From Actinomortierella ambigua (lineage: Eukaryota; Mortierellomycota; Mortierellomycetes; Mortierellales; Mortierellaceae), in contig JAAAJB010000014.1 in NCBI GenBank assembly GCA_016098155.1, positions 62,001 to 126,000 on the forward strand: a DNA stretch of 64,000 bases. Direction: 5' to 3'. The position numbers and the translations under genes are program-made. This document shows positions 1 through 20,249 of this stretch, piece by piece. Below the pieces are notes generated by a model. It did no database searches. It had not been told where the DNA came from and saw nothing but the letters and a program-made list of their open reading frames with translations. Within the stretch, counting starts at the first letter, position 1. Each line of letters begins with the position of its first letter.

Positions 1-486
1 ACCTGTGTCTTGTGGATTCGAATTGTGCCCGCGAATGTATTGGTAATGATAGAAGTAAGCCTTCACCCCCCCCCCCAACATAATTCTCAGGTCATGAATG
101 TAAAAGTGAAGGCGCTGCTCGCAGAAGCACAAGGCGTTCGCGTCAGGAGGTTGCAGATGTAGAGCTACTCGCTTACCTCCTGTGTGCCACGATTCGGAGT
201 TGGAATCGTCTTAATGTTTCTACCTCTGTTAAGAGGCCTCGATATCCATGATCTAGACACTACATACTCTCTCAAGGTTGACTGCATTATTTTTGGTAGT
301 GTAACACAGATGTTGTGAAAGTAGAAGTAAGTTTCCTCGGGACGCATGGCAATGCTGAAAACATGAGCGATATTTCTTCTGCATACCTTACACCCTTTTC
401 GACTCTTTGCCACAACACAATCTTCCTCCTTCCTCTCTTCCTTTACCCCCTCTTGCACCATTTGCCTCCCAGGCACCAAAGCAGCC

Positions 487-1061
487 ATGGGTCAGCTCGA
501 TATCAGATGCTTCTCGGAGGCAGCCAACACGCTATACGCCATTGCTAACGGATTCAACGGCGAAAAACAAGTTATCATTCTACTAAAGTCCAACACTGCA
601 CCCGCAGGGCCCAGCAGCTTGTCGTGGTCAGTTGTCAGCACTACTCCTCTCGAGAGTCTGTTAACCATCTACAACGATGACATTCTATGTCATGCAGACC
701 CTTCAGGTGCCTTTGCGGTGTATTCTTCAGATACCAACAGTGACACAGGACCCATGCGACGTCCAGGCGGCTACCGATATCACCCCAATCTCCCTAAAAT
801 AACCGACTCGACCGGACCTGGTGGCTGGGCCAACATTTCTATCCCAAAAGACCTTGAATGGGGTTCTTCTTCGTCCAAGGGTAGACTCTTTTCCCTTAAG
901 GATAGTTCTGGCACGTACCATTTGTATCACGCCTTTGCAAAGCCTTCGGGTTCCAACAACCTCAAATTCAGCGTGTTAAATACTGGTACAAATGCCATGG
1001 AGAACTCTCCAGTTACCTGGTCATTGGTAAGTCCCTCTTCTCTCTTTAATGTTTTTTTCTT

Positions 1062-1102
<41 letters not shown>

Positions 1103-2803
1103 TCCTCTCTCTTTCCCTCACTCATTGGTTGAGAGCTTTGCTGTGTCTGATGCATGCCAAATTATGTTGTGGCTAACAATCGTACAAACAAATCCCCTGC
1201 CACACGCCGTCTCCTCTGTTCGACTCGACAACAGTCTCCTGCTTCAATTCCCACCGACTTGAGGTTCACAGGATCCCATATGTTTTTATGGAGCAACGGG
1301 TATCCTGCCGATCGCTTTTACTACGCAGCACTGCCACAAGGTCCCTTGCCCTCATCAGGGCCGAAACTGGTTGAAGGCGACTACAAAGTATCTGGAAAGT
1401 GCACTAGGATTGGCGCGGTGAATGAGCAATACTTTTCCTTCTGCTCCATTGCTGTAAGACAAGACGTGCAACGACTAGAAAAAAAATTATGTGAGCTTGC
1501 CGCAGACGTCGCGCCCATTGCTAACATTTTTCTTTTTTTTTTCTTCCCTCACTAGCTGCCATATGGCACTGATTATAGGCTTTTTAGCTGGGATGGCACC
1601 AAGGCTCTTCCTGCAGTCAATTCAACAGCCGGTCTCCCAATGGACGATTACATCAACACTCAAATTGGCACTGTCGGAGATGGCAAGACCTCATTCATGC
1701 TGATTCAGACAGGATCTTTGTCAGGGTATTCCAGCCACAATTATAAGCTTAACGCCCTGACTGTCACCGGTCCCTCTGCAGGCCAGATACAGGTTGTACC
1801 TAGCGGCGTCGCCGTTCCGGATGCTAACATCAATTTCAAGAAGGTGGAAAGCAGCAGCGGCGGCGGGTCCAGCGTTTGGTCCACTATTGGAACCGTCTTC
1901 AGTATCATCGTATCCCTTGTGATCCTGTCTTGTCTCCTAAAATGCTTCGGCCCCATGTTGTTCAAGTCAAAAACAAAGCCTGCTCCTGTCGAAATACCTG
2001 CCCAAGAGCCAGAGTATACGCCCCCAGCACCCCTCGACAACAAGGTGCATGACCAACCTCTGCCAGCTGGATTTTCGCCTATGATGGGAGGGTATGGTCA
2101 GAATTCTGGCCAGCTGTCGGGTGCATTCCCTCCTGGTCCTGGCGGTTTCCCCATCTCAGGCTTTCCAGCCGACGCCTCAGGCGTCATGCCCGCATCCACG
2201 GCGTCGGGCAATTTCCCTGTCTCGGGCCTGCCGCCCGATTCCGGTCGCCTGGATCCCATGGCCTCACAAGCGCACCGTGACCCATTACGGCATTTGCTTG
2301 GTCAACCGCCTACTCATTCGACCACGGTCAACAGTGGGCTATCTGGCTCCACCTTGGCCTCGACACCTGCGGCAACAAACTCTGCCCAGAGCCAGATCTC
2401 AATCGCGAACCTCTTCCAGTCTCAAGGCTCGATCCAAAATCCTTTCCAGAGTCACAACTCTATAGCGGCATCGGCGGCTGCTTCGTCCGTATCCTCAGCC
2501 GCTGCAGGTCCAAAGACACAGACAACTGTCGACAAGAACATCGTGTCGGACAACCCCATGTGGCACGCTGCAGACAACAATGGACCTTCCCCTGGTTCTA
2601 ATTCTTATCCACTTCAAGCGTATCCTCCATCGGGAGGGAACGCCAATGTCAGTTATCCGATGGTGGGAGGAGCAGTCCAGTCTTCTCTGCCAGGGCAGCC
2701 CCAGCCCGCCTTCGTCCCGCCCTCGACTTCGTCGTCGGATCCTCCGCCTTTTGTCGGCTCAAGACGGCGAGATTCAGATGTCTCTCTCATCAACCGCGAT
2801 TAA
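487..2803 (+). CDS. MGQLD-family single-pass membrane protein, copy A
   Basis: I do not recognise this family by name. Exons are 487-1026, 1235-1453 and 1556-2803, all joined in phase 0, giving 668 aa. The first ~350 residues look beta-rich, with Trp/Gly motifs such as GPGGWANI and ALPQGPLPSSG that suggest a propeller-like fold (inference). One TM helix spans about residues 361-382 (VWSTIGTVFSIIVSLVILSC). It is followed by a ~285-residue tail rich in Pro, Ser, Gly and Ala. The start MGQLDIRCF is shared with two paralogues in this window and sits in a CCATGGG context. No signal peptide precedes the TM, which is odd for a predicted ectodomain. Intron 1 carries a long CT microsatellite. An AATAAA lies at 2806-2811, directly after the stop. 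The next gene is a tandem copy 263 bp downstream. Confidence 0.85.
1062..1112. repeat. CT microsatellite inside intron 1
   Basis: A nearly pure CT tract lies within the first intron of copy A. It is long enough to be length-variable between strains, and it lengthens the polypyrimidine part of the intron. Confidence 0.8.
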
Positions 2804-3065
2804 AAAATAAAAGGTGGAGAAGATACGACAAGGTGTTTTGTAGAGACCAATATGCTGTGATTTTAGACTTTTTGGCACGTTGTCTCAGCATTGCCTTTTC
2901 GAGCACACAACAGCATGCACAGACAGTTTTGTGGCGTTGAGCCTAATTATTGATCAAAGGCTACCTTCCTCCCTCCTTTTTTCCCCTGAGAAATGACCCA
3001 TCGTCCATTTCCATCTCATTTTTACCTCCAACTCTGCATTCCATTCCATCCATTCATTGCCCACC

Positions 3066-5117
3066 ATGGGTCAACTTGAAGTCGAATGCTTCGCGACAGA
3101 CGAACTATCCATGGTTCTGTACGCCTTTGCTTATGGTTTCGACCAAAGCAGGGGTAACTCCTACGAGGACAGGCAAATAGGAATTCTGCTAAAGTCAAAC
3201 TCCGCCCCTTCGGGCCCAACAGGTGTGACCTGGTCTGTTGTGAGCACCGTGCGCCAAGACAGTCTGAGGTTCTTGAGGATGGCACCGGCATGCGTAGTGG
3301 ATCCCAGTGGTGTCTTTGTGGCCTTTTCCTCTCGGACAAACCTAAACAGCCAGGACCCTTCGAACGATCGTCCTGGTGGCATCATGTACGACCCGACCCT
3401 GACCCCCACGCGCAACTCGACAGGACCTGGTGGTTGGGCCAACATCAACGTCCCCAACACGTATCCATGGAAGGACGACGGAAGCCCGAGCACTGTCTTC
3501 TATATAAATGATGCCTCCGGTAGCTACAGTATCTATCATGCCTTTTGGACACCTCTCACGGCAACGTCTATTTCCTTTGGTGCGCTCGACAAAGCGGCAG
3601 GCTTGATGGACGTTGCCCCATTGCGCTGGGCTTTGGTAAGTCTTAACCCGAAAGAGTGCGGTATTTTGTCTGTTGCTGTTTTTTTCTCCTCCTGAAGAGC
3701 AGTAATATACATTCTCTCTTCTTTTCCCATTCTTTTTTCTGCGACGGGGGCACAAAAAAACAGCCAACCACCGGGGAGATCCAGCGCATTAGCTTCTCGG
3801 CCACAAACATCTTTGTGTGGAATACACCTCTCGATCGTTCAGGCGACCGAGTTTACTCGGCCACGCTTCCTCAAGGCCCCTTGTCGGCAACCATCCCTGA
3901 CATGCACTGGGGCAATCACACTGCTACAGGCTACTGCAGAAAACTAGGTGTCCTGGGGAGTCAGGCATATGAGTTCTGCACCGATAGCGTAAGCCTCTTG
4001 TTTTCTTTTTTTCTTTGCCGTGATTTCTAGATAACATGAGAAGTAACTTTCCCGCATGTTGGCTCCTTTATGCTCATCCACCGGGGGGGGGGGGTTGTTC
4101 ATATAGCTATCGCGCGCTACAACTTACACGCTTCATGTCTGGGACGGCAAGGATACCTCACCAGCCATCACAGCATCCTCCTACATTGAAGAGTCGTACG
4201 CCGTCATCGCTGGCACCATAACAAATGGCGACACAAGCTTCATGATCATCCAATCCAATCGCTTGTTTGAAAACGTCCAGACGAACTACATGGTGAGAGG
4301 CCTGATTCTCTCGGGTCCTTCAGCTGGCCTGGTCCAGGACGTACCTAATGGCATCTCGGTCCCCGACAGCACGATCTCCTACATTGCGGGTACCGACAGC
4401 CAAAACAAATCGCTCGGAACTCTGGGGATTGTTGGTATCGTTCTAGCCGTGGTCGTCGTCATTGCTCTCGTGGTCATCGTCATGACTAGGCGTCGAGCCA
4501 AAAACCGTAAGGCATTATCTGCAGCGGCGGCGGTAGCAGCAGGAGAGATTTACCTCGATGGAAAACGGCTGGCAGAAACGTCAGAAACGACTCTAGCAGT
4601 AGCAGCAGCCGATGGTCCTATCTACCCGACCCACTACTACCCACAGCCGGTTTCTCAGCCTGGATGGTCCACGAATGGGCAAGACCCTCCCTTGCCTGTC
4701 CTAGGAGGCTCAAACCTGAGCCCAATCACCGAGCCCGTAGCAGAACCGATGGCGGCGAATATGGGGGTTGGTCCCACGGAAGCAGCAACAACAATATGGC
4801 CAGTCCATATGCAAGCCAGCGGCGGCGAGAGTGGTGGTGGTGGTGGTCCCTCCATTCCGATCGTGTTCTCAAGTCATCCTCGACCCAACTTTGTCACCAC
4901 CGTCGGCGATCCCGCCACATCCCCGCACGCATCGTCGTTGTCGCCTGCAGATGCCGACTCGAGGCTGGCCTCCTCGGGTAACGACTCATCAGCAGCGATG
5001 CCTTGGGCGCCTAGGCCATTTGACCCACACGCTTGGACCGCGAGCAGGCCTTCTGCGACGCATGCTAGTGGTGTTGCGGCCGCGTCTTTTGGTGCAAGTC
5101 CGGCTGGTGGAGAGTGA
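3066..5117 (+). CDS. MGQLE-family single-pass membrane protein, copy B
   Basis: Tandem paralogue of the preceding gene. Exons are 3066-3635, 3764-3988 and 4107-5117, all in phase 0, giving 601 aa. Exon lengths (190, 75 and 336 codons) and splice phases match copy A. The shared exon-2 motif TLPQGPL and the exon-3 motif VWDGK confirm the model. One TM helix lies at about residues 369-391 and is very valine-rich (GIVGIVLAVVVVIALVVIVM). A basic stop-transfer stretch (RRRAKNRK) follows, then a low-complexity tail with poly-Ala, poly-Gly and Pro. The start CCACCATGGG is an excellent Kozak match. Intron 2 contains a 12-13-base G homopolymer just upstream of its acceptor, a likely sequencing weak spot. 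AATAAA is at 5209-5214. No signal peptide is visible. Confidence 0.85.
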
Positions 5118-6391
5118 ATCCTAGAGCTGTGGGTCATGAGGTAGGGATTGGATAGGGTGAGAGGCGGTACGACACTTCCCCCCCCCAACCTCGGTAGCTT
5201 TCACTGAAAATAAAAATCTTCCATCCCCTGTGTGGAATAGTCCACGCGATTTTAATGTCATGCTTCCGACATGCACCTCTTCGGTGCGGAGACCTCGAAA
5301 ATGCACCATTGGTCAGCTTCGACACCTGCAGAGGCCACATGGAAGTGTGTTTCCACAACTCGGTCTGGACAAGCTGGAAGAGAACTGCATGGTGCTCTCA
5401 AACGTCTACTATGAACCAATGATACCCATGGGTGTTTAGGGAAAGGAGGAGTGTCTCAATCCAAACCTCCGCGGAAAAAAATGAATCTGCTCTTGAATCT
5501 AGTGTTGTGGGTGCGTGGATGGTGGTGGTGAGGGTCGCATTGACTATTTTTCGCGTCGGGTTGACCATTGGTGTACATGCTGCCAAAGAAATTCCAGCAG
5601 TTCCAAGCAGCCCCCTCCCCAACCTTGATTTGTTTGTATGTGATGTGCGTGCCCTTTGTGTGTCACCCTCCAAGGCATCCTTACCAACATCTTGAGATTT
5701 GGCCCAAGGGGGTCTGGTCAGATCTTTAACCGCTGTCCTCCCTGTCCCTCCTCCTCCCCCCACCTCTCTCTCTCCCTCATCCTTCCTTTTTTTCTTACCC
5801 TCAAAGCCTTTGTTGTCATCTTGGCCTCTACCTTCGCGAATGAACCTGATATTGTGCAGCATTTCTTGCGGCTTCCACTCCCTCCCTCACTCACCTCGCA
5901 GTCTGCACTTTGCCGAGCCGTCAACACCAAGAGTCAACACCGAGCGTACAGCCGTGCTAGTGATGTGTGCTCGCTTTGTTCAAACCTCCCCCCTCCCCAC
6001 CCCCATCCCGCAGCAGGGAAGCGAGCAGGAGACGAGAGGGGAGGGGGAAGCCAGCACATAGCCATTTAGACTTTGTTGAATCGAGACCCTTTTTTCGGGC
6101 CTTTTTCAAAGTCCGAGTCATAAACATCGCCCCTTTCGATCATGGTATCACGATTCAGGTAGGTCAGCTCTTCTTACTTTTGGTTTTTATAACAGCATTG
6201 AGAATCAAAAATAAAAGGAAAAAAAAAAGAAAGAGGGTAATGGTATCATCTCCTCGGAGCGCAACAATGAGAAAAAAAAACAGGGGATCTGGGAAGAAAG
6301 TAACCGTGAAGATGGAGAATCGACAAGCATTAGGAGAGGGACGAGAGAGAGAGAGAGACCACCCGCCTGGACGAAGAACAAACAGCCCTAA

Positions 6392-7972
6392 TTAGGCTTT
6401 CTCAAGCTCAGAGACCTTCTGCTTGGTAAGTTCAGGGGAGCCAGACTCGGGAGTCTCGGGCGCAGGCACGGGGTCATGTGCGAACGATAGCAATAATCCA
6501 GCACCCCCCATAAGGATGGAAGCGGAAAAGAGCAGGATAACGGCAAGGTTGGAGACGTGGGCAAGAAATTCCGGCGCCTGTAGTATAATCAGGCCTAGGT
6601 TGAGCATGGTGCCTTGGGTCAGGAATGCGGTCAGATTGTGAATGTCGTCCTCCGAGTACCCCCAGTCAACCCAGGAGTGATCATAGGTGTCCAGATGCTC
6701 ATTGTCCACGTAGTAGGTAGCCTCAAAGGCCTCATGTCCCTGCATCCGTAATTCATCGGTTTTGCTCGCACGATTGAGCTCGGCACGGTTGACTGTGGTG
6801 TTGTAGTACTCCACACCAACATCAACGTGAATCGCCTCGACCGTCATCACGAAAGCTCGGTTGCCTGTAGAATCAACAGGAACGGTGCTCAACTGGGTGT
6901 TAACACCATCCCAGTGAGATCTACCATGCTTGTCATCTGTTAGCAACTGCGTCGCGTACAGCATGTAGAAGGATGGAACGCCGAGAAAATTGAGCCGCAT
7001 GCACAGGGTCTCGAGAGTAGGGGTTGGGAACCTTCGGCAGTCAATGGTGGTGTTGACAGATGGATCAACAAATTCCGGTATTTCCCGCTGGTTAAAGGTC
7101 TGGCTGAGCTGCATGGAATGTGTCATGGTGAAGACTCGACGGGTAATCACAAAGAGGTGTCCCTTTCGCGAGAGCAGGTATCCGAGGCTATGCCGAGTAC
7201 ACCGGTGTTCGCCGAGCGATCTTGTGAGGCAGGATTCTATCGACCGAGGACTGCTGAGCGACATATCGGAGTAATTCGTTGAGGACGCCTTTGCAATGTT
7301 GACAAAGGCTTCCTGCAGCATAAGGGTGCCGGCGGTATCCGTCCCGTTGTAGAACTGGAACACTTCGCCATCTGGTGCCGTTGCGTTCTGCGGGTAAGCC
7401 TTTTCTTCGATGTCAGTCTGAGGCCCAAAGGCATAGGAAAAATTGCCTCTCTCCCCGCCGCCGAACGTCATTTTCTCACCGCCGCAATCAACTTCGAATG
7501 CGACGACCTTACAAGACGTCCTCGTAGCAGGCATGAATGAGTATCCATTGAAAAGGCTCCCATTCATACCTGTCATGTGAAAGAGAATGCTCTCGACACT
7601 AGTGTCGTTGGGTAAGAGGGTGGTGGTCTTGGCGAAGTCCGTGCTGACATCGTGATAGAATTCATTTGTCGGGAGGTAGGTAGGTTCAAAAGGATAGGTG
7701 TAGTTCAGGAGTGTCGCGAGGTAGTTGAGGGCGAAGCTGATGACCAGAGCAAGACAAAGATAGATGCGACCATGAGTGTGTTGTCGGCCAGGGGACCTTC
7801 TGGCGAAGAAGAGAAACTTGACTGCCTCCAGAGAACCACCGTTGATGCGTTCTTTGTAGGTGAGGTTGCTTGTCCTCAATGCGAGATGAGATACGAAGAA
7901 GATCATGGACCCTTGCAAGGCGAGGCGTATGAAGGTGTAGAGCAGCGCGCTGATAACCTGATTGAGGTACAT
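6392..7972 (-). CDS. Three-TM glycoprotein of unknown function, paralogue 1
   Basis: Single-exon gene of 526 aa that I do not recognise. Two hydrophobic segments lie near the N-terminus (about residues 9-32 and 70-92: ALLYTFIRLALQGSMIFFV and GRIYLCLALVISFALNYLAT). A ~370-residue region with many N-glycosylation sequons (NYT, NDTS, NGS, NFS, NGT, NTT) and several Cys follows. A third TM helix lies near residues 470-495 (NLAVILLFSASILMGGAGLLL), followed by a short acidic tail (TKQKVSELEKA). The sequons imply the central part is extracytoplasmic (inference). A paralogue of 523 aa lies 3.9 kb away on the same strand. A TATAAA lies 82 bp upstream of the start. Confidence 0.85.
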   Translation of the reverse strand: MYLNQVISALLYTFIRLALQGSMIFFVSHLALRTSNLTYKERINGGSLEAVKFLFFARRSPGRQHTHGRIYLCLALVISFALNYLATLLNYTYPFEPTYLPTNEFYHDVSTDFAKTTTLLPNDTSVESILFHMTGMNGSLFNGYSFMPATRTSCKVVAFEVDCGGEKMTFGGGERGNFSYAFGPQTDIEEKAYPQNATAPDGEVFQFYNGTDTAGTLMLQEAFVNIAKASSTNYSDMSLSSPRSIESCLTRSLGEHRCTRHSLGYLLSRKGHLFVITRRVFTMTHSMQLSQTFNQREIPEFVDPSVNTTIDCRRFPTPTLETLCMRLNFLGVPSFYMLYATQLLTDDKHGRSHWDGVNTQLSTVPVDSTGNRAFVMTVEAIHVDVGVEYYNTTVNRAELNRASKTDELRMQGHEAFEATYYVDNEHLDTYDHSWVDWGYSEDDIHNLTAFLTQGTMLNLGLIILQAPEFLAHVSNLAVILLFSASILMGGAGLLLSFAHDPVPAPETPESGSPELTKQKVSELEKA

Positions 7973-8053
7973 GGTGTGAAGATGGGCGGTATTGTGGGGA
8001 AGTGGAGAGCTAGGTTGAGAGTGAGAAAGGAACTAGGTGGATGAAGGGCTGGG

Positions 8054-8059
8054 TTTATA
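8054..8059 (-). promoter_or_regulatory. TATA box of glycoprotein paralogue 1
   Basis: On the minus strand this reads TATAAA, 82 bp upstream of the ATG at 7972. The surrounding GTTTATAAACTTCTCG is conserved in front of the paralogue at 12033-12038, which supports promoter function. Confidence 0.55.
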
Positions 8060-8200
8060 AACTTCTCGGAATCGCTATGCCACGAGACTTCCCAGTGGAT
8101 CCCTTTCGCAGCATCAAAGTGTCTCTAGGTGCAAATCCTCTTCAAGTTCTGAAGATCGATGAACGCTGAGAGACTCGCAGATGAAAACGTGTGGAAAGAT

Positions 8201-9289
8201 GCTGACCAAAGTAAAGCGTTTCTTCGACTCGTGTGGGCGTGTCCACCCGCCCTATCGAATTTCGTGCAACCAAAGACAGACATGCACTAATGTTTGTCGA
8301 GCAGCCTTCAAGCCAATCATAGAAACACACCATTGTATATGTCGGCTAAGCCCTACGAGCATTACCGCCAATTGACTGTCGATTAGGTTTGCAGACCAAC
8401 GACATACGATGGGAATCATAGCAATTTTGGGAGGATCTAACTCTGCCTTTGCATTTCAGCGGCGCGATTTTTTTTGTGGTGCTCATGGTTGAAGCTTGCG
8501 ATAGATAATTTCACAGTCGTCAATTCAGTGTGCCGTTTTTTGTGGTCAATCAAAGTTGAGACATGATATCTCGTACATTGCGTATCAAGTAGGCCATCGA
8601 GCCTTGACAGGCACAACCTTGCTATGAGAAGGTCCAGCATATCACACGAATGGGGGACAAGAGTCGGAGAGTAAAAACAACATCATAGGTTGGATATGTG
8701 TCAGGAACGGTAGCTACCATCCAGAATGAGCCGACGTCTTCGCCGACAGTTGAACCATGGCTTGGGTAAAGACCAGTTAGTGTCCTACTTGGGGTGCACC
8801 TATGTGCTGAGCTCACTACCACCATCGCACGAATGAACTCGTGACCGACCATAGTCACAGAAGCACACAACACAATCGTAGCAGTAATGTTGGAGATGAA
8901 ACGGTCAAAATACCGTCCTCAAGCATGGTACTTCCTCCTAACGATCCTGTAAGGTCATTGAGGTCCATGTTGTAATTCCCAGCTGGCTCGCGAGTGACTG
9001 AAAGGGTTCACTGTTATCCAGCGAGAAACGTATTCATCGACCTTGGCGCAGTAGAACATACGTAACGTCGATCTCCAGATGAACAACTATGTGTCAAGAT
9101 GCTACCACTCTCAGAAATCTTGCGAGGCGAGGTAAGTAGCGGTTCTGAATTTCTATAGAAGGTAGGCTGGTCAAGAGTCGGCTACGCAATAGTACACGAG
9201 AGATGTCTCTGCAGATATTTTATCCCCGATAGGGACGAAACACATGCAGGTTTACTCCAAAACCCAGGCCCTCTATGGAGAATGTGGAG
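8201..9289. other. Intergenic spacer between duplicated units
   Basis: About 1.1 kb with no credible coding region on either strand. ORFs here are under 90 codons and match nothing I can recognise. Confidence 0.6.
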
Positions 9290-10304
9290 AACGAATGGTG
9301 CCACGAGCATCCACCATGAACCAATGGCCTTGAGAGTCATGGTGTTTAGGGGTGGGTGATGTTCAAATCTGCCTCCGCGGGATTTTAGCCTGCTCTCGCA
9401 AATCTAATGTTGTAAGTGGTGATGGCTTGATCATTGGTTGTGCCAAAAAACGTGCAAAGGAATTTCTGACAGTTCCGGCTGCATCGTCTTTGACCTCGAT
9501 TTGTTTTGTGTGTGTGCGTGCGTGCATGTTGTTTGTGTGTTTGTATGTGGTGCTGCATGTGGGTGCATTTGAGTGTTACCAAAACAAGGCATCACTACGA
9601 GCGTCTTGAGTTTGGAGAAAAGGGGGCTGGGTTCAGCTGCAAATGTTTGGCTACCACTCTATCTCTCTCTCCCATTTGTGTCTCATAAACCATTGTTGTC
9701 ATCTTGACCTCTACCTCCGCGAACGAGCTTGGGTCGCGCGAGAGTCCTTCTCACTCACCCCCACTCCCTCAGTTCCGCGGATCTGCACTGTGCCGAGCCA
9801 TCAACACCAAGTGTACAGTGTAGTGTGAATGAGCAGCTCTCTCTCTCTCTCTCTGTCTCTCTCTCTTCCCTCTCTCTCTCGGACAAATAAAGAGGCATCT
9901 TTTTGCTTACCCCTTCAACGCTGCTGAGCGAAACTGGCTCGGGCTGGGCACTGACGCTTCCGAGAACGAGGAAGGGAGGTCAGCTGGGAAATGAACATGG
10001 TTGTTTTAGATTTTTTTGTGGAGATCGAGACCCTTCTTGTTTAAAAGTCCGAGAAGCTCACAAACATGCAGGCCTTTTCCTCGGTAACGCGATTGGCATT
10101 GGAACGATATGGTTGGACTGCACCAAAGAAGTGGCAGTTTTTATTCTTTTTTTTTATTGTCCAAAACTATTGAGAAGCTGGACAATACAAACAAACGTGA
10201 CTAGGAAAGGAGAGGACATCTCCACCTCGGAACACGAGAATGCGGAAAAATGAACCTGAGAGAGAAGGAGGAGAACAGCTTGAAGAGGGAGTAGCCCCAG
10301 TCTT

Positions 10305-11876
10305 TTAAACTTTCTCGTGCTCAGACACCTTCTGCTTGGCAGGCTCGGGGGAACTTGGCTCGGGAGTCTCAGATTCAGAATCGGAGGTGAGCGAGAGCCA
10401 AAATCCAACACCTCCCATGAGGATCGAAGCGGCAAAGAGAAGGATGATGACAAGGTTGGAGACGTTGGCAAGCAGCTTCGGAGTCTGCATCACAATCAAG
10501 CCTCGATTGAGCATGGTGCCTTCGGTCAAGAACCTGGTCAGGTTACGGATGTCCTCCTCGGAGAATCCCCAGTCGACCCACGAGCGATCATAGATGTCGA
10601 CCTCGTGGTTGTCCACAAAATGAACAACCTCAAAAGCCTCGTGCCCCTGCAGTCGCATTCGGTTGATTTTGTTTGCGCTGTCGATCTCGTCGTAGTTGAC
10701 AGTGGTGTTGTAGTGCTCCACACCAACATCAACGTGAAACGCCTCCATGGTCAACATGAGAGTGTCGAGACCCAGATCTGCGTTGAACATGGAGCCCACT
10801 TGGGTATTGACAACATCCCAGTGAGATCTGCCATGTTTGTCGTCCGACAGCATCTGCGTCGAGTACAACCTTGGCGTCGATGGGGCACCAAGAGTGTTGA
10901 TCCGCTTGCACAGGGTCTCGAGAGTAGGGGTTGGGAACCTTCGGCAGTCAATGGTGGTGTTGACAGATGGATCGACAAATTCCGGCATTGTCTCGTTGAA
11001 GGTCTGGTTGAGCTGCATGGAATGCGTCATGGTGAAGACTCGACGGGTGATCACAAAGAGATGGCCATTTAGCGAGAGCAGGTATCCGAGGCTGTGCCGA
11101 GTACACCGGTGTTCGCCAAGCGATCTTGAAAGGCAAGATTCTATCGACCGAGGACTGCTGAGCGACATATCGGAGTAATCTGTTGACGAGGCCTGCGCAG
11201 CGTTGACAAACATCTCCTGCAGCATGAAGCTGGTGGTGGTATCCGAACCGTTAAAATACTCAAACTCTACCCCATCAGGTGTCATACCGAGTACCGGGAA
11301 AATCTGCTCTTCGTTGTCCGTCTGAGGCCCAAAGGCAAGCGAAGAGTTGATGGTATTCACAGCGAACTCAATGTACTCATCAGGGCACGAGACCTGGAAT
11401 CGAGCAAGCGTGCAAAGCGTCCGTGTAGCAGGGATGGACGAGTACTCGTTGAAAAGGCCCCCATTCACGCTCACCCCCATGTTGAAGAGAATTCTTTCGA
11501 CGCTAGTGTCGTTGGGTAAGAGACTGGTGGTTTTGGCAAATGCCGTGGTGACGTTGAAATCGATTAAATTTGTCGGGAGGTAGGTGGATACAACAGGATA
11601 GGTGTAGCTCAAGAGTGTCGCGAGATAGTTGAGGGCAAAGCTGAATGCCAGAGCAAGACACAGATAGATGCGACCATGAGTGTGTTGTCGGCCAGGGGAC
11701 TTTTTGGCGAAGAAGAGAAACTTGACTGCCTCCAGAGAGCCGCCATTGATGCGTTCTTTGTAGGTGAGGTTGCTTGTCCTCAGTGCGAGATGAGATATGA
11801 GGAAGATCATCGACCCCTGCAAGGCGAGGCGTATGAAGGTGTAGAGCAGCGCGCTCATAACCTGATTGAGGTACAT
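10305..11876 (-). CDS. Three-TM glycoprotein of unknown function, paralogue 2
   Basis: Single-exon paralogue of the 6392-7972 gene, 523 aa. I chose the ATG at 11876 because the protein then begins MYLNQVMSALLYTF, aligned with MYLNQVISALLYTF in paralogue 1; the reading frame stays open upstream for another 84 codons. Layout is the same: two N-terminal hydrophobic segments, a large sequon-rich central region, a C-terminal TM (NLVIILLFAASILMGGVGFWL) and a short charged tail ending KQKVSEHEKV. Long stretches are identical, for example SDMSLSSPRSIESCL and ITRRVFTMTHSMQL. The central region around residues 95-200 is much more diverged, as expected if the exposed part evolves fastest (inference). 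Function unknown. Confidence 0.85.
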   Translation of the reverse strand: MYLNQVMSALLYTFIRLALQGSMIFLISHLALRTSNLTYKERINGGSLEAVKFLFFAKKSPGRQHTHGRIYLCLALAFSFALNYLATLLSYTYPVVSTYLPTNLIDFNVTTAFAKTTSLLPNDTSVERILFNMGVSVNGGLFNEYSSIPATRTLCTLARFQVSCPDEYIEFAVNTINSSLAFGPQTDNEEQIFPVLGMTPDGVEFEYFNGSDTTTSFMLQEMFVNAAQASSTDYSDMSLSSPRSIESCLSRSLGEHRCTRHSLGYLLSLNGHLFVITRRVFTMTHSMQLNQTFNETMPEFVDPSVNTTIDCRRFPTPTLETLCKRINTLGAPSTPRLYSTQMLSDDKHGRSHWDVVNTQVGSMFNADLGLDTLMLTMEAFHVDVGVEHYNTTVNYDEIDSANKINRMRLQGHEAFEVVHFVDNHEVDIYDRSWVDWGFSEEDIRNLTRFLTEGTMLNRGLIVMQTPKLLANVSNLVIILLFAASILMGGVGFWLSLTSDSESETPEPSSPEPAKQKVSEHEKV

Positions 11877-12032
11877 GGTGTGAAAATGGGCGGTACTGCC
11901 GGGACGTTGAGGGCTGGTTTGAGAGTGAAAAAGAGGGACTAGTTGAGTGAGGGTATGAATTATGGGCAAGTAGAGAAGAGGTGGTATCGAACAAAGGAAG
12001 AGGAAGAGAATGTTGTGAGTGAAAGATGAAAG

Positions 12033-12038
12033 TTTATA
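12033..12038 (-). promoter_or_regulatory. TATA box of glycoprotein paralogue 2
   Basis: Minus-strand TATAAA, 157 bp upstream of the ATG at 11876. It lies in the same GTTTATAA-CTTCTCG context as the other paralogue. The extra distance suggests a longer 5' UTR here. Confidence 0.5.
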
Positions 12039-12451
12039 AGCTTCTCGACAACGTCGTTTTCGGGACGGTCTAGGCGCAGAACTATTTTGATCGGACCTGC
12101 ATAAGTTTCTGGAGCATCGACGCTGCATGTACCCTGGATGAAAACGTGTGACAAGATGTCGGGCTTTTGACCCTGACCAATCATGGATTCCGCTGCATGA
12201 CTGCTTTGATCAGCATGAAGATTTGGCCAGATTTAATGACATTCTTCGGGCCCGAGTAAGGTTAGGCTTATGCGTCTAGAGTGAAGGCCGTTTTTCTCCC
12301 TTCGAGGCTACGCCACTCTTTTAGGGGCTAGGATCATGAACTATTGTATTCTTTTCCAACAGAGGAAAGAGTCAAGTTTGCGAGAATTCTTTTAGTCGTA
12401 AAAGGTCCCTTCTTATAGCTTACTTTGGGCCATGTATTATTTTTTTGTCTA

Positions 12452-14551
12452 CTAAGGTGTATATTGTGGTCCTCGTACGTTAAGGTGACCTCTCCCATCC
12501 TGAGGTACGCTCTGTTCCAACATTTGTGGGTTGCGGGGTGGTTGCGACGCTCGCAGTCCCGACGAGGGCACCGATGACGCGGGGAAATGAGGTGGCGCAG
12601 AATGGAAGGGAGATTCTATTAAAGAAGGAGAGTGACCTGAGGAGGCCGACAGAGCTTGGTTTCCAGAGTACTGAGGGGCACCAGCGGTCATGGCATGGTG
12701 GAGCTGTGACATAGCATACGCTTGAGCATAGTCGACATTGACATTCCGTGGAGCAAAATGCTGTTCCGGTGTGGTGGCATGCATCGGTGCAGTGTGATCG
12801 TTGCTGAGTGGTTCATTAAGCGTCGCTATCCAAGACGCTGTTGGAGGCATCCATCCCGCCTCACGAATATCTTCATCCTGCTTGTTGCCCATAGCGGGAC
12901 GATGGGGGTCGTCATCAACGGACGAGAGAGGGTCATCCGAAGGTGTGGGCTTTGATCCTTGCCTATTGCGTCTCCACACAAGGAATCCAATGATGGCACA
13001 CACGACCACTACGCCAGCAACACCTCCAGCAATGGCACCGATATTAGGGCTGTTGTTGTCCGAGGACTCGTCAGTGTTGTTTGAGGGACTGGCCTGGGCT
13101 GGCGACGATGGAGAGGGCGTGCTGGGTGGAGGTGTGCTCGGAGCAGCATATTCTGCAGAAGGAATATAATCTGGCACCCAAATCTTTTTGGAAATTTGGT
13201 AGATAGAAACTGGAGTAGAAGCTTTGTCGGCATCAACGATGAGCCGATTTTGACCCGCATATGTCCCTTATGACAGTATTGAGAGAAAGAAAAAAAAGAA
13301 GAGCGAAGTCCATTGAACATGTCCATACCAATGTCAGGTTTGTCTTCTTTCTGTTTCTACTACTTTTTTTTTGTTCTTGGTTGGCAATATGCACTCGTTC
13401 AAATCAAGGCCTCGTTTGATTTCTTACCTCCCCAAACAAGAAAATAGTCGCCAGCAACAGCACAAACAGCGGATTCTCGATGACCACTATTCATTGGGAG
13501 GCTAGTCCACGACGAGCTAGCAAGGTCCAAAACTAGGAAATTCTGATTATTGGCGACGGGAGCATATCCGCCATACCAAAAAATCGAGTTTCCGTCCTCC
13601 GCTATTCAAGTCATGTAGGAAAGCATGAGCTAGTAAGATAAGAGTGCTCGAAAACTAGCGTCCACAACAACGTGTTTCCCCATTTTAACCAGTGGTCCTT
13701 ACAGCTGGCCATGCAACTTAGGTAGCTCGCCCCTTGGAAATTGTATGTAGCCTATAGCGATCAAAAGAAATGCCTGTTACAACCCTGGGACTGAAGGATC
13801 TCAATAAGAACCCACAATATTAGCAACAATCTCCCGTGAATTTTGTTACCTTCCATGACCACTGCTTTGTCTGCGCCTGGTAAAACATCGCCGTCTGAGT
13901 CTGTGGTTGATCCATATGTGCCGCGGTACCACTAAAGAATACGGCGCTCTTCAGCGACTCAGACCAAGCTGCCCGGTAGCCTGCTCCAGGGTAATACTCG
14001 CCAGCGAGAGGCCTAGCGGTCCTTGCTGGATAAACCGTCGACACATGACTATCCGTCGCAAAGGAGTAGATTACATATGATTGGTTGGTCAATGCACTAC
14101 CAAAAGTGCCTCCAGCAACGAGCACCGTGCCGTCTGTTCCTAGCGTCACAGGGTACGAAGCCATGACGTCTGGAAAAGTACTGAAGAGACTGTTGAAATC
14201 CTGCCAGGCGTTGCTGTCAAAATGAAACCGGCGACGGCCGTTGTACATGAATATCTTGTCGTCTGGCGATAAAACTGCAGTCGGGTTCAGGGCTGGAGGT
14301 CCATCGGGTAGCCGAGTCCATGCTGGTGAAACCGACTTCCATTGTTTGGAGAGATCAAGAACGAAGAACTGACCAGTGGCGACTTGGCCGGTACCATTGT
14401 AAGTCTCGCCACCGTAGACGTATAACTTGTTCTTGCGTTTGACAAACCCAGCGCCGGTAGCAGGCCGAGGTGCATCAGGGGCTTGCTGCGAAGTTGCCGT
14501 GGTAGCGATTGCCGTGAATAGTAGAAACCAATGAAGATACTGGCCCTTCAT
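12452..14551 (-). CDS. Kelch-repeat type I membrane protein with a 15-nt microexon
   Basis: Five exons on the minus strand: 14551-13850, 13751-13703, 13601-13428, 13343-13329 and 13266-12452, with phases 0, 1, 1, 1; 584 aa. The N-terminus MKGQYLHWFLLFTAIATTATS is a good signal peptide. Kelch-like blades follow (KLYVYGGE, TVLVAGGTF, IFWYGGY, YFLVWGG). A Ser/Pro stalk and TM helix (about residues 389-411, IGAIAGGVAGVVVVCAIIGF) come next, then the stop-transfer WRRNRQ and a ~170-aa tail rich in Pro, Ser and His. The 15-nt exon (ACAAACCTGACATTG) keeps the frame and joins YFLVWGG to DKPDIGTYAGQNR. Kelch blades usually mediate binding; the partner is unknown. An ATG 90 nt upstream is in frame, but the chosen start yields the signal peptide. 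Confidence 0.8.
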
Positions 14552-15413
14552 GGTACTACTTGCGATCCTAAAGGGGAAAGAGGATACAGGGACAGGGAGA
14601 GTGTGCTGTCTACCACTGATTAGTAGAAGTAGACAAGGCAATGAAGAGGCAATGAGGAGCGGAATGAGATGGAGCGGAATGAGATGAAGGCATTCATCCA
14701 GTTTGATTCGGGCCCATGGAGTTTATTGTTCAGACCATGCATACTGTTTGTACTCTGTGTTGATTGGTATTGATATTACACTACAGCTGCAGAATAAAAC
14801 AGATGCTCCAATTGCCATGCTCTACCAGCCAATCCAGCAAGCTTTGAATTCGTTCTCCTGCCTTAAGCCCAGTAAGTTCTTCTGTTGCATATGACAAGTA
14901 TGGCCAGAGAAGTAAGCAATCTATCGAATCGTGCCAGCGACCTCCATTCCTCACCAAATGGATACGTTTACAGGTTACATAATGTTGCCCATGCAGGAAT
15001 TCGATATTGCTGTAAGATGCCGCCAGATCTCGACGCTCCATATGCGCTTGAACGCGAAGCACTCCGCCAGCCGGCCTCATCGAGACACTGAGCTACCTTA
15101 CCTTCTCACTTGAAAAAGCAGCGAAGGTAGAGCATGGGACAACTATCGTCTGCCCCGAAGCAGAGGATTGAACCATCTGCAGCAGTGGGTGACAGAGCCA
15201 TGAGGAAAACCGCGCAATAACGTTACGAGGTCAACGAATGTCGAACTGAGACTGATGTGGTGGTGGAAAGGGTATGAGAGAGAGGAGGGGAGATGTGCAA
15301 GCGTTAAGTTTGGGCTATGCAAATATAGTTCAGCACCAAGACAATACATCCATGCTGCAGTAATACTCGGAGGATCAGACGTACTACAAAAAGTACCTTT
15401 TCCCTGAGCCCCC
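14552..15413. other. Intergenic, no gene seen
   Basis: About 860 bp upstream of the kelch gene. Only short ORFs without recognisable features occur. Confidence 0.5.
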
Positions 15414-15791
15414 TTAGCACCAGGTCTGGCAGGAGAGGAGAGACATGTTGAATCTACAACACCCGGTATCTTTTCCTAGAACGCGCAAGCTTTTCATAAC
15501 GCAAAACTCCATCTCAGTACGAGATATAGTACCATTTGCACGAACGTTTGCAACAGGTTCGTCGTACGAACGAAAAGGCATGTTGTACATGACTTGATCC
15601 ACCACTGCATTGGTCAGCTTATGTCTCCTCTGTAAATCTTCGTCGATGGAGACGAGGTCTTCTCCGTCAAGACTGTCCTTGTGATAACCATTTGCTCCCT
15701 GCTTCATGGGTATTGGCTCACTGAGGTTGTTCTGGAAACCATGTTCCATGATATAGGTGGTGGCACTATTGGGGGGTAGTTCAGAATACAT
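15414..15791 (-). CDS. Hypothetical protein, 125 aa
   Basis: Unrecognised uninterrupted ORF starting MYSELPPNSATTYIMEHG. It is polar, acidic in the middle (DSLDGEDLVSIDEDLQ), and has no TM or signal peptide. It could be the C-terminal exon of a longer gene or a relic, since no upstream exon was found in the 13 bp separating it from the divergent remnant at 15804. Confidence 0.3.
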   Translation of the reverse strand: MYSELPPNSATTYIMEHGFQNNLSEPIPMKQGANGYHKDSLDGEDLVSIDEDLQRRHKLTNAVVDQVMYNMPFRSYDEPVANVRANGTISRTEMEFCVMKSLRVLGKDTGCCRFNMSLLSCQTWC

Positions 15792-15803
15792 AATTTGAAA
15801 CGT

Positions 15804-16345
15804 ATGGGCGACAGGATGTCCAACGATGCACGCTTGGGCAATCCGATTCTCCTTCCCTCTTTTCCGAGCGCTCTACCTTCATCAACTCCAGCATGTCAGC
15901 CAGCCAGCCTGGAGGAGGCTATTCCTCAAGATGAAGAGGATCTTCGTTTGCAAGAACAGAAGATGGAAATCGACTTGGCTGCCGAGATGAAGTTGGAGGA
16001 GCTGCCAAGGGATCTATCGAAAGAGGGCAACAAGATGCGGGAAATGGCATTCTAGCCAACACTGTGCCGCTGAGCCGCAAGATTGAACGACTCCGGGACC
16101 GTCTGCTTGGGAACAAAGCTACGTGGAAGGCTCTCGAATCAAGCGCCGAGGACAAGCACCGCCGCAGTGCCATCAAGGAGACTGTACCAGTCGAACAGGA
16201 CGACTTTAGATCTACCAAGCTGCCACGTAGTCTCTGGCTTCCAAAGGATCGGTGGTCCGACCTGCACGAGGCCCTCCCCCGCTACCTCGACGACAAACAC
16301 GAGCATCTTCCAGTGGAGGATCTAGCCACCGATGACATCGACTGA
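15804..16345 (+). pseudogene. Frameshifted coding remnant
   Basis: Two charged, coding-looking segments lie in different frames. The first (MGDRMSNDARLG... to MREMAF) stops at about 16055. The second is open from about 16030 (GNGILANTVPLSRKIERLRD...) to the stop at 16345 (...LPVEDLATDDID). Their overlap near 16030-16050 and matching composition suggest one original frame broken by a single-base indel. No clear splice pair joins them. I do not recognise the protein; it is helical and rich in Lys, Glu, Arg and Asp. Confidence 0.4.
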
Positions 16346-16918
16346 CATCGTGTCCCTGCAGGGGCTTGATGATGCACCAAGCCTCCGCTTCCAGTCCTTG
16401 TCTGCCAACAAAATCGTCACCGCTGAGGTAATTGTATAGCCAGTAAGCTCTTGCTTCTACGCTGAAAGTTTCTGCATCACGTAAATGCTATGTGTCAATG
16501 GGACACCAAGTATATTGTTTTGTAGATGAGGGTGAGGCCGTCAAGGCTGTCATTCGCATGCATGACATGCATAGCAAAGCCGTTGAAAACGAGTTTACTC
16601 CAGAAACACAAATATCTTGCCATGTGGTCCTGCACGGATGCCGTTCAGGGGAGGGGCAACGTGGTGGATACAAACCCTTTGTGCAATGTGGCTGTGAGAG
16701 TGCATCTCACTCATATGCTCAGCAGCATGCAGAGCGGAGAGTGGGTGTCCATCTGCCAATAACATTGCTCGTAACGACCACCTGTGATTGCCTTTTTGGG
16801 ATACGCGGCGTGTGGGCTCCTGTGTTGTCAACCATGTCTACCTCTCACCCTACCTCTCACCATCTCTCATTTCTCTCAATTCGCTCTTCATCCACTCCCC
16901 TCCATCATTCGAGCTGCC
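16346..16918. other. Intergenic and promoter region of copy C
   Basis: No supported gene. The last ~80 bp are a CT-rich leader typical of the three MGQL[DE] genes. Confidence 0.5.
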
Positions 16919-19123
16919 ATGGGCCAACTTGACATCGCATGTTTTGCGACAGAAGAAACCACTAAGGTCCTTTATGCATTCTCATACGCTTACGACAATA
17001 ACCGTTCCGGCTACTCGGGCAAACAAGTTGGTGCGTTGATAAAGTCCAATGCTGCTCCTACCCCAGACACGCTGACCTGGTCTCTTGTCAGCTTTACCTC
17101 TGCCAGCAACATCTTTACACTTACATCTTACTCTTGCATTGTCGACCCAAATGGTGCCTTCACCATGTTTGGAGTGTACTCCAACTCCGGAAAGGACCGT
17201 CCAGGAGGCTTCCGGTACGATCCCACCCTGACTACAGGCAACGGCACCAGTGGAACCTGGACCAAGATTGACATCCCAATTGACTACGCATGGTCAGAGA
17301 CCTCGTATGCAAGCGCCGTCTTTTACCTTAAGAACGCTGCGGGCAAGTACGACATATATCATGCCTTCGCTAAAAGTACTCCGGCGGACATCAGGTTTGG
17401 TGCTCTCAACACAGCTACCAACACCATGGAGAACTCGAATGCAACTTGGGCGTTTGTGAGTATTCTTCCCCCCTTCCCCTTCTCAAGCTCTCTTTCAAAG
17501 TCGAGACCAGACTCTACTTCCTCCTTAAAATCAATATTGCTCACACACTAAACTTTTTTTTAATGGTTCAAAGCCCAACATTTCAGTGCGTCCAAAGTCC
17601 CTGTTGGCGACCTCAACCACCCTTCTTGTGTGGGACAGTGTTACCACTGCTAAGCGTTGGGTGGCAACACTCCCTCCGGGCCCATTGACCTCGACGCCGC
17701 CAACTCTCCGGGAGGTCAACTTTCCATTCGATGGCACCAATTGTGCGTATGCATACATTGCCTACGAGAGATATTTCCATTGTACCAATACTGTATGTTT
17801 ACTGTGTGCCCCATCGTTGCCTGGGGAGAGGCTATTGTAACTGAAGGGATAATAACTCGTTTTTCTCTTTCTCTCTCCGTCTCTCTGTCTGTCTGTCTGT
17901 CTCTCTAACGGCTTGACACCCTCTCCTAACCACAGCAAACGTATGGCTCATCGTACGTACTGTATCGGTATGATGGTAACATGTCGCTACCCATGATCAA
18001 TGCCACTGGGGGTATTGCCAAGTCCACTTATGCAGACAATGAAGCTGCTGTCGTCGGAGATGGCAATTCGAGTTTTATGGTGGTCCAGTCAGAACATTTG
18101 AGGTATTATGGCGGGAACGATAATTACATGGTCAGCACCGTAGTCGTCACTGGGCCTGCAGCGGGTACAGTCAAGAGTATTCCCAACGGCTTCTCTGTAC
18201 CGGAAAACCTCTCGTACAAGGAAGTGTATACCCCTCCTCCTCCTCCTACTAGCTCGAACGGAGGGAGCTATTATCCTGGACCTTCAGGCTCTGGTTCTGG
18301 TTCTGGCTCAGATGACTCGTCAGTAAGCACTGGCTTCGTTGTCGCAATTGTTGCTGTTGTTGTCATTGCCATAACGGCTCTATTTTTTGTTGTGCGATGG
18401 CGCATGAAGGCAGGACACAAGACCAAACCACCTGGAGATGGTGTGGTTGAGCCCTCGCCGTACACGCAAGGACCCGTCTACCCACAGCCAGTCCCACAGC
18501 CAGTCCCACAGCCTGCGTATCCCCAGCCTGCCTATTCCCAGCCTGCTTATCCCCAGCCTGTGCCACCTATGGCTCAAGGTGCTCCGGATGGTTACCCACA
18601 CATGGCAGGTGGACCCATGACAACGGCTGGCGCTGTGCCCGACGCCTCTATGTTCGCCACTTCTTCTGCTTTTGCTGCCACCCTGCCTTCGTTCTCGAGC
18701 CACCCCCGACCCAACGTTGTAACCAGCGTCAGTGGCAACCCTAATCCTGTCATTGACCCGATTTTAGGCCAAGACCCTTCGGCAGTGCCATGGACACCCG
18801 CACCCTTCGATCCACATGCTGGGACAGCAGTGCCTTCTAGTGCACCCAGCCCGGCTGACTTTGGAACAACCTCTAGCCCTTCTCCCGCACTGAGTGCGAT
18901 TTCACCAGCCTTGCCTGCTCCCTCTCCTTCCATCTCTGCTGGGTTTCCAGTCGTAGCTAGTCACGGTTCCCCCGGCTCTTTTGCAACGACGGCGGACCGC
19001 CCGCTTCCAGCATTGCCCCAGGAGCCACCAGCACAAGTCTCTGTCTCACAGGCACCTGTCACCGCCTCTCCGCCTATCCCTGCGCATACGCGACCCTCTA
19101 ACCCACAGCTTCGGGCTGTCTAA
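16919..19123 (+). CDS. MGQLD-family single-pass membrane protein, copy C
   Basis: Third paralogue, separated from A and B by 11.8 kb. Exons are 16919-17455, 17574-17792 and 17936-19123, all in phase 0, giving 647 aa. Exon 2 is 73 codons, exactly as in copy A. The N-terminal half carries the family motifs DRPGGFRYDPTLT, YDIYHAFAK and TLPPGPLTS. A Gly-Ser linker (SGSGSGSGSDDSS) leads into one TM helix at about residues 385-406 (GFVVAIVAVVVIAITALFFV), then RWRMK. The ~240-aa tail begins with repeats of the type PQPVPQPAYPQPAY and ends NPQLRAV. Upstream in-frame codons are open and hydrophobic but begin with no ATG, so no signal peptide is supported. Intron 2 contains a CT/GT-rich tract. Confidence 0.85.
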
Positions 19124-19318: not shown

Positions 19319-19600
19319 ATGTCGCAACACGTCAACACCGCCAATGCCACCATCGGTCAGCTCAAAGAGTCAGTCGGCAAGGCTATTGGCAACGAATCCT
19401 TTGCTGCCGCGGGGGCTGAACAGCGTACTGCTGCAGAGCTCAAGCAGCACGATCTGGACTCCACGACACGAATGGAAGGGCTACAGAATGTTGCTCTGGG
19501 CGAGGCCCAAAAGGTTCTGGGCACTCTCAAGGGCGATGACGAAATGACCGCACGAGGACATGGCAATGTCGCCAAGGGACACGTCCAACGGAACGCATAA
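19319..19600 (+). CDS. CsbD-like stress protein 1
   Basis: Intronless, 93 aa, starting MSQHVNTANATIGQLKESVG. It has the CsbD-like pattern of a short helical hydrophilic protein: G(Q/S)xKExVGKAIGNxxxAAxGAEQRT near the N-terminus and a C-terminal GHGNVAKGHVQRN. CsbD was first known as a sigma-B general stress protein in Bacillus; the molecular role is unclear. Homologues are common in some fungi. Only Gly, Ala, Lys and Glu-rich amphipathic segments are visible, with no TM. A tandem relative of 94 aa follows 364 bp downstream on the same strand. Confidence 0.85.
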   Translation: MSQHVNTANATIGQLKESVGKAIGNESFAAAGAEQRTAAELKQHDLDSTTRMEGLQNVALGEAQKVLGTLKGDDEMTARGHGNVAKGHVQRNA

Positions 19601-19964: not shown

Positions 19965-20249
19965 ATGTCTGAACGTCTTAACAACTCTGCCGACCAGCTC
20001 ATCGGTTCCGCCAAGGAGACCGTCGGCCGTGCCATTGGCAACACGAACCTCGCCGCCTCCGGTGCCGAGCAGCGCACCCGTGGTGAAGCCGCCCAGAAGG
20101 TTGCCGACGCCAAGACACACGCCTCTGGCATTCAGAACAAGGCCACGGGCGAGTTCCAGCAAAAGGTCGGAGAGTTGACTGGCGATAACAGCATGCGAGC
20201 CAAGGGTGCCGGCAAGGCTGCCCTCGGCGATGTCCAGCGCAACGTTTAA
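19965..20249 (+). CDS. CsbD-like stress protein 2
   Basis: Intronless, 94 aa, starting MSERLNNSADQLIGSAKETV. It keeps the hallmark segment GSAKETVGRAIGNTNLAASG and the C-terminal GAGKAALGDVQRNV. It is closer to the canonical CsbD pattern than its upstream neighbour, whose middle has changed (QHDLDSTTRMEG). The two probably arose by tandem duplication. Codon choice is strongly biased to C-ending codons, suggesting high expression (inference). Confidence 0.88.
   Translation: MSERLNNSADQLIGSAKETVGRAIGNTNLAASGAEQRTRGEAAQKVADAKTHASGIQNKATGEFQQKVGELTGDNSMRAKGAGKAALGDVQRNV

Follow-up and report, generated by a model that had tools for sequence, protein, structure and literature searches.

The first 19 kb of the window analysed here, a 64,000-nucleotide stretch of the Actinomortierella ambigua genome (contig C46, positions 62001-126000, from an assembly of 33.8 Mb in 846 contigs), raise the question of whether the membrane-protein genes located there form an array of surface receptors of a single design. 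As the initial annotation had stated for every confident gene in this part, all six genes modelled in positions 1-19123 encode membrane proteins; they belong to three families, namely three paralogues starting with MGQL (A, B and C, hereafter the MGQL family), two D genes and one kelch gene (K), so they do not represent six independent events. The layout claimed for the three MGQL[DE] paralogues and the kelch protein was also confirmed: in all four a front of about 345-380 residues is followed by one transmembrane (TM) helix (within residues 363-405) and a tail rich in proline, serine and threonine, which together account for 30-41% of the tail residues. On balance we lean towards the explanation that A, B, C and probably a further gene, E, encode paralogous single-pass receptor-like proteins with a propeller outside, a TM helix and a tail carrying docking motifs.

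Gene structures, family membership, TM helices and motifs were computed from the sequence, the models of A, B, C and K being spliced at GT-AG sites and free of internal stops. On the forward strand, gene A (668 aa, 487-2803) consists of exons 487-1026, 1235-1453 and 1556-2803, gene B (601 aa, 3066-5117) of exons 3066-3635, 3764-3988 and 4107-5117, and gene C (647 aa, 16919-19123) of exons 16919-17455, 17574-17792 and 17936-19123. The three share one exon plan, in which introns of phase 0 fall at residues 179-190 and 252-265; K has four exons. By hydropathy, the TM helices comprise residues 363-381 of A (1883-1939), 373-391 of B (4428-4484) and 387-405 of C (18338-18394). The model of C coincides with the deposited protein DFQ27_001240 (P0004) at equal length and with 100% identity and coverage; the deposited version of A, DFQ27_001236, begins with a fused CsbD exon and lacks exon 2, and no deposited protein for B turned up in the database homologue searches, which were run at E-values up to 0.001, 0.01 and 0.1, needed shared five-residue words and, in two of three cases, scored only the best ~8,000 candidates.

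The family is larger than the part found in the window. A genome search with the front of C gave 13 exon matches on contigs C46, C52, C140, C18 and C190, and a search with the copy C140a added a third gene on C140, two further genes on C18 and a weak match on C392 (E = 1.9e-4), which by eye possesses the family front, a TM helix and a short tail. Gene E was found through tail-motif matches as open reading frames (ORFs) on the reverse strand of C46 (58418-60383), 1.6 kb upstream of the first base of the window. It shares the layout and the tail motif, yet its front is 23% identical to those of B and C; it was missed by the genome searches with the C front and with C140a, a search with E itself matched E alone, and it forms a very long branch in the tree. 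Judging from its sequence, E is probably a further family member, and the array would thus extend beyond the window. The resulting count of 14 genes, four on C46 (A, B, C, E), three on C140, four on C18 and one each on C52, C190 and C392, is a lower bound.

The database homologues listed came from A. ambigua, A. wolfii, Mortierella antarctica, M. alpina and Haplosporangium gracile, that is, from Mortierellaceae only, and the MGQL family is likely to be confined to them, at the reach of a search that even at E up to 0.1 left P0006, one of its own queries, out of the matches listed. No paper was recognised in the literature as treating these proteins, which are apparently undescribed so far within the scope of that search; PMC11878562 and PMC6303338 have no bearing on the family.

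In a tree of 14 rows, from which C18c, C18d, C140c and C392 were left out, A pairs with a protein of A. ambigua BGZ73 (100/100), C with A. wolfii (100/99) and M. antarctica with H. gracile (100/99); these three pairs and B make up one group (97/99) whose inner branching lacks resolution, and C18a/b and C140a/b make up a separate one (99/98). The whole array including E is not one clade. Because A pairs with the BGZ73 protein and C with A. wolfii, the split between A and C predates the split of those lineages. In BGZ73 the locus tags of the A and C relatives, 001305 and 001307, are two apart, and their contigs are listed at identical length, so some of the clustering is conserved; the expectation that relatives would keep the neighbourhood thus holds in part, as shown for BGZ73 only. 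Compared with its BGZ73 relative, the tail of C is 66.7% identical (207 positions) and the front 55.5% (128 positions present in the model of the relative), and the order is opposite for A, with 63.1% in the front and 56.6% in the tail, and 83.9% in the CsbD piece.

What the front is could be approached mainly through its predicted structure, as neither Pfam nor the PDB gave a significant sequence match to it. The Pfam hmmscan of 10 family members returned 13 families with E of 1 or less, with no kelch profile and no fungal fucose-specific lectin profile among them. The 24 PDB sequence matches of the family profile (E up to 10) were rejected as they all lie at its TM end, and so was the single match of the first profile, which was weak and located in the tail. 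AlphaFold predicts a β-propeller for the first two thirds of the MGQL front; in C the predicted propeller front includes residues 1-345 (16919-18214, introns included), of which 1-230 are well modelled. In the fold search the best matches were tied between lectins and kelch domains, among the fold families present in the VIA-align lists. The lectins concerned, fungal fucose-specific AAL, AOL, AofleA and AFL and Photorhabdus PLL and PHL, have a propeller of similar size and are among the best-ranked tied matches of the front; unlike them, the MGQL proteins match no such profile among the Pfam families listed and are membrane-anchored with a long tail, and the identity in the structural alignments is ~6-10%.

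The start M-G-x-L-x3-C is common to nine of the ten aligned members, including those of A. wolfii and M. antarctica, C52 beginning with MTSL. The hydropathy of the first 30 residues (10-residue maximum) is 0.65-1.87 in the 13 MGQL-type sequences, all of them below K (1.92), the start of which is signal-peptide-like by hydropathy. Hydropathy, charge and the conserved start, with K as the control, indicate that the MGQL proteins likely have no canonical signal peptide. A signal-peptide exon hidden upstream was considered and rejected, as four of ten loci (B, C, C140b, C52) have no YAG acceptor within the 60 nt upstream of the start that the scan covered; the remaining six have one. In all 13 sequences the net charge rises from before to after the TM helix, and in 12 of them it is positive after it. 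Cys8 and Cys73 of the front are invariant in all ten rows and the tails hold 0-1 Cys. The charge bias, the invariant front cysteines and the cysteine-poor tails together suggest that the TM helix drives insertion with the N-terminus outside, the front being predicted on the outer and the tail on the inner side. Among signal-less N-out (type III) membrane proteins, pro-neuregulin is an earlier example whose N-terminal domain is long. The MGQL proteins resemble this class in having a single TM helix followed by positive charges and no apparent cleavable leader; the domain is unrelated, and the MGQL topology is predicted only.

The same data bear on an arrangement that we regard as unlikely, in which the propeller is cytosolic and the tail outside or luminal, or the protein resides on an internal membrane. 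It would be in line with the low hydropathy of the N-termini (E lying close to K), with the absence of any likeness by eye upstream of the start codon among 10 loci, and with the tails, whose Pro/Ser/Thr-rich sequence could form O-glycosylated stalks; against it stand the positive charges after the TM helix, the distribution of cysteines, and the acidic clusters and linear motifs of the tails, which look cytosolic.

Returning to the receptor explanation, the tails carry two short motifs. Motif 1 is HPRP, preceded by [FLM][SG][SNT] and followed by a hydrophobic/Thr/Ser stretch; it reads VFSSHPRPNFVTTV in B (4863-4904) and SFSSHPRPNVVTSV in C (18689-18730), both on the forward strand, and occurs in eight of ten tails (B, C, E, C18a, C18b, C52, C140a, C140b) compared to a mean of 0.05 for HPRP alone after shuffling, which ignores the shared descent of the tails. 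A variant is found in C140c. Motif 2, W.P.PFDP[HRQ], is represented by PWAPRPFDPHAWT in B (5001-5039) and PWTPAPFDPHAGT in C (18788-18826), again on the forward strand, and is also present in C140a, C140b, C18c, C18d and C140c. Nine of the 14 genes possess motif 1, seven motif 2 and 11 at least one of them. In the seven pairs compared, motif-1 positions agree at 7-11 of 14, the other parts of the tails being 25-36% and the fronts 23-38% identical. Scanning the genome with a degenerate pattern covering SHPRPN gave 16 matches, and its reversed control gave 6. Of the 16, long receptor-type ORFs hold five (B, C, C140a, C140b, E) and ORFs shorter than 130 aa hold ten; the last is in a 178-aa ORF that lacks the receptor layout. 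None of the docking classes considered (calcineurin, Atg8, SH3, adaptor-ear types) is known to fit all copies of motifs 1 and 2.

The tails also hold [LP]PxY, in six of the ten (C18a, C18b, C52, C190, C140a, C140b; shuffled mean 1.4, P = 0.001) and, by eye, in C140c, which makes seven of 14. These may be sites to which Rsp5/Nedd4 ubiquitin ligases bind. They are one of the points in favour of a somewhat unlikely alternative, according to which these are endocytic or adhesive surface proteins whose propeller binds a glycan or a wall component and whose tail motifs direct trafficking only, by ubiquitin and adaptor docking. Also in keeping with it are the fungal fucose-binding lectins among the fold matches and the tails of A, B and C, in which Pfam gave no significant domain. 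Despite that, the propeller matches are tied across functions and motifs 1 and 2 are not known to match any trafficking signal; nor is this alternative cleanly separable from the receptor explanation.

A number of observations weigh against that receptor explanation itself. With regard to topology, several N-termini fall not far short of K in hydropathy (E 1.87, P0006 1.71, C52 1.68, B 1.67), the translocation of ~350 residues without a signal peptide is unusual, and in C18b the charge that follows the TM helix is not net positive. The excess of sequons in the fronts is modest when pooled (58 versus 45.2 expected, P = 0.016, in 11 sequences with C18b, C140b and P0003 left out), with A, B, C52, P0005 and P0003 below their own expectation, and C140a and C140b well above theirs. 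As for the fold, the P0004 model has a block pLDDT of 38-70 at residues 231-340, a mean of 54.6 and a pTM of 0.51 (64.4 and 0.67 in the second model), and the weakness of the models past residue ~230 makes any blade number or closure tentative. The TM-scores given by Foldseek are low: 0.17-0.28 relative to the length of the query, disordered tail included, and 0.23-0.51 relative to that of the target; for the second model, no more than 5 matches reached an E of 0.001 or better. Finally, A, C190 and C392 have neither of the two tail motifs, the tail of C392 being short, and the copies within C18a/C18b and within C140a/b/c are closely related, which makes the motif counts non-independent, motif 1 being represented by about six lineages.

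In the receptor explanation, a β-propeller of ~345 residues on the outer side would recognise a ligand, either a glycan or a protein. As the proteins appear to start directly with the propeller, the single TM helix would need to act as the insertion signal (a reverse signal-anchor, N outside), and a long disordered cytosolic tail would follow, in which HPRP-type motif 1, motif 2 and, in half of the copies, [LP]PxY may recruit a common partner. Ligand binding, this docking and the signalling or endocytosis that it would serve are what we infer from the layout. The family would have grown by tandem duplication, with fronts that diverged and tail motifs kept in most copies, which is consistent with many inputs and one output. 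A narrower proposal, that these are Mortierellaceae-restricted receptors in which a signal-less 350-residue propeller lies outside and private tail motifs couple diverged ectodomains to one cytosolic partner, is put forward tentatively, as possible rather than probable. We know of few cell-surface receptors in early-diverging fungi beyond the common classes; if true, the family would provide such fungi with a small recognition repertoire, and its signal-less topology would be a natural test case for the passage of long N-terminal domains into the endoplasmic reticulum. The combination of diverged heads and conserved tail motifs makes the motifs usable as bait for a cytosolic partner.

The kelch gene K (579 aa, reverse strand, 12452-14551) consists of exons 14551-13850, 13751-13703, 13601-13428 and 13266-12452, and its TM helix, found by hydropathy, includes residues 387-405 (12977-13033). 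Its match to the kelch profile PF24681 scores 61.3 bits against a cut-off of 50, and two more kelch profiles, PF13415 and PF13964, are also matched above their cut-offs. The initial annotation had counted K with the MGQL paralogues, a grouping that was not borne out: the MGQL profile aligns with K at the TM helix alone, by which K was rejected as a divergent member, the tail signature is different, and the K family has at least 83 exon matches on at least 24 contigs (75 of 119 candidates scored). The proposed lineage-specific array of surface sensors stands as an apparently Mortierellaceae-restricted receptor-like array of one layout with K outside it; docking-like motifs are shared among MGQL tails and not with K.

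K belongs to a separate family and resembles the MGQL proteins in layout and perhaps in fold, either by analogy or through very old common descent. Kelch-propeller single-pass proteins (attractin/LZTR1-type, here K) are similar to them in the predicted propeller front, one TM helix and the disordered tail, and the fold search with the MGQL front placed kelch domains among its tied matches; the MGQL proteins differ in having no kelch Pfam profile (10 sequences, E up to 1), no alignable sequence beyond the TM helix, no evident signal peptide and other tail motifs. With the MGQL front predicted as a propeller, the two fronts plausibly share a fold, so that the suspicion of unrelated folds is eased as far as the MGQL side, for which models were made, is concerned.

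A functional partnership between K and the MGQL proteins, in a neighbourhood co-selected as a receptor cluster, is very unlikely. The genes are adjacent and alike in layout, and both fronts are plausibly propellers, but out of the at least 24 contigs with K-family matches (among the candidates scored) and the six with MGQL genes only C46 holds both, and HPRP occurs in none of seven kelch tails (K and six fetched sequences). The position of K beside the MGQL genes may be due to chance.

The NPQ motif reported near the C-terminus of both C and K is literally there, at residues 641-643 of C and 554-556 of K, where it belongs to RNPQM (12521-12535, reverse strand). As a docking motif common to the two it is not supported. 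RNPQ near the C-terminus recurs in six of the seven kelch tails and is a feature of these, and the NPQ of C is part of TRPSNPQ within its terminal TRPSNPQLRAV (19088-19120, forward strand), so sharing between the families is weakly supported. Three of ten MGQL tails have PQ near the C-terminus, where 0.58 would be expected from shuffling (P = 0.017). A second signature of the kelch family is PGPQW near the C-terminus, present in the six fetched tails (L049-L054), K having RGPQY.

Four CsbD-like genes are located on both sides of the receptor array, as ORFs at 19319-19600 and 19965-20249 of the window and at 60801-61151 and 61552-61926 of contig C46. The genome search for CsbD gave 12 matches, those beyond C46 being only on C392, C276, C641 and C30, and on C392 the MGQL-like gene lies ~11 kb from the CsbD match. 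In the A. ambigua database entries P0001-P0003, a CsbD gene and gene A or its relative appear as one protein. Such a fusion was rejected as a real protein and judged an annotation artefact from the gene structures, as the CsbD ORF ends in a stop codon of its own, gene A begins at a conserved start of its own, and P0003 is joined differently from P0001 and P0002.

Between B and K, on the reverse strand, lie D1 (526 aa, 6392-7972), with three hydrophobic spans by hydropathy and a large sequon-rich loop, and its tandem relative D2 (523 aa, 10305-11876), which is 70% identical and also has three such spans. They account for two of the five genome matches of their family. Sequons in the D loops exceed those of shuffled sequence (9 versus 3.8, P = 0.005, and 10 versus 5.0, P = 0.016), and a Pfam search at E up to 1 matched neither protein apart from one sub-threshold hit for D1. 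The stretches 5799-5933 and 9682-9814, downstream of D1 and D2, are 74% identical, which suggests that the D genes were duplicated together with flanking DNA.

No gene was identified in regions 8040-10300 and 15400-16400, where three ORFs tested against Pfam had no match and a DNA search gave no long second copy. Region 15400-16400, with ORFs on both strands, may contain a decayed gene. In the other region, a stretch of ~45 bases near 9837-9884 has dozens of matches of 84-97% throughout the genome, several of them arranged head-to-tail.

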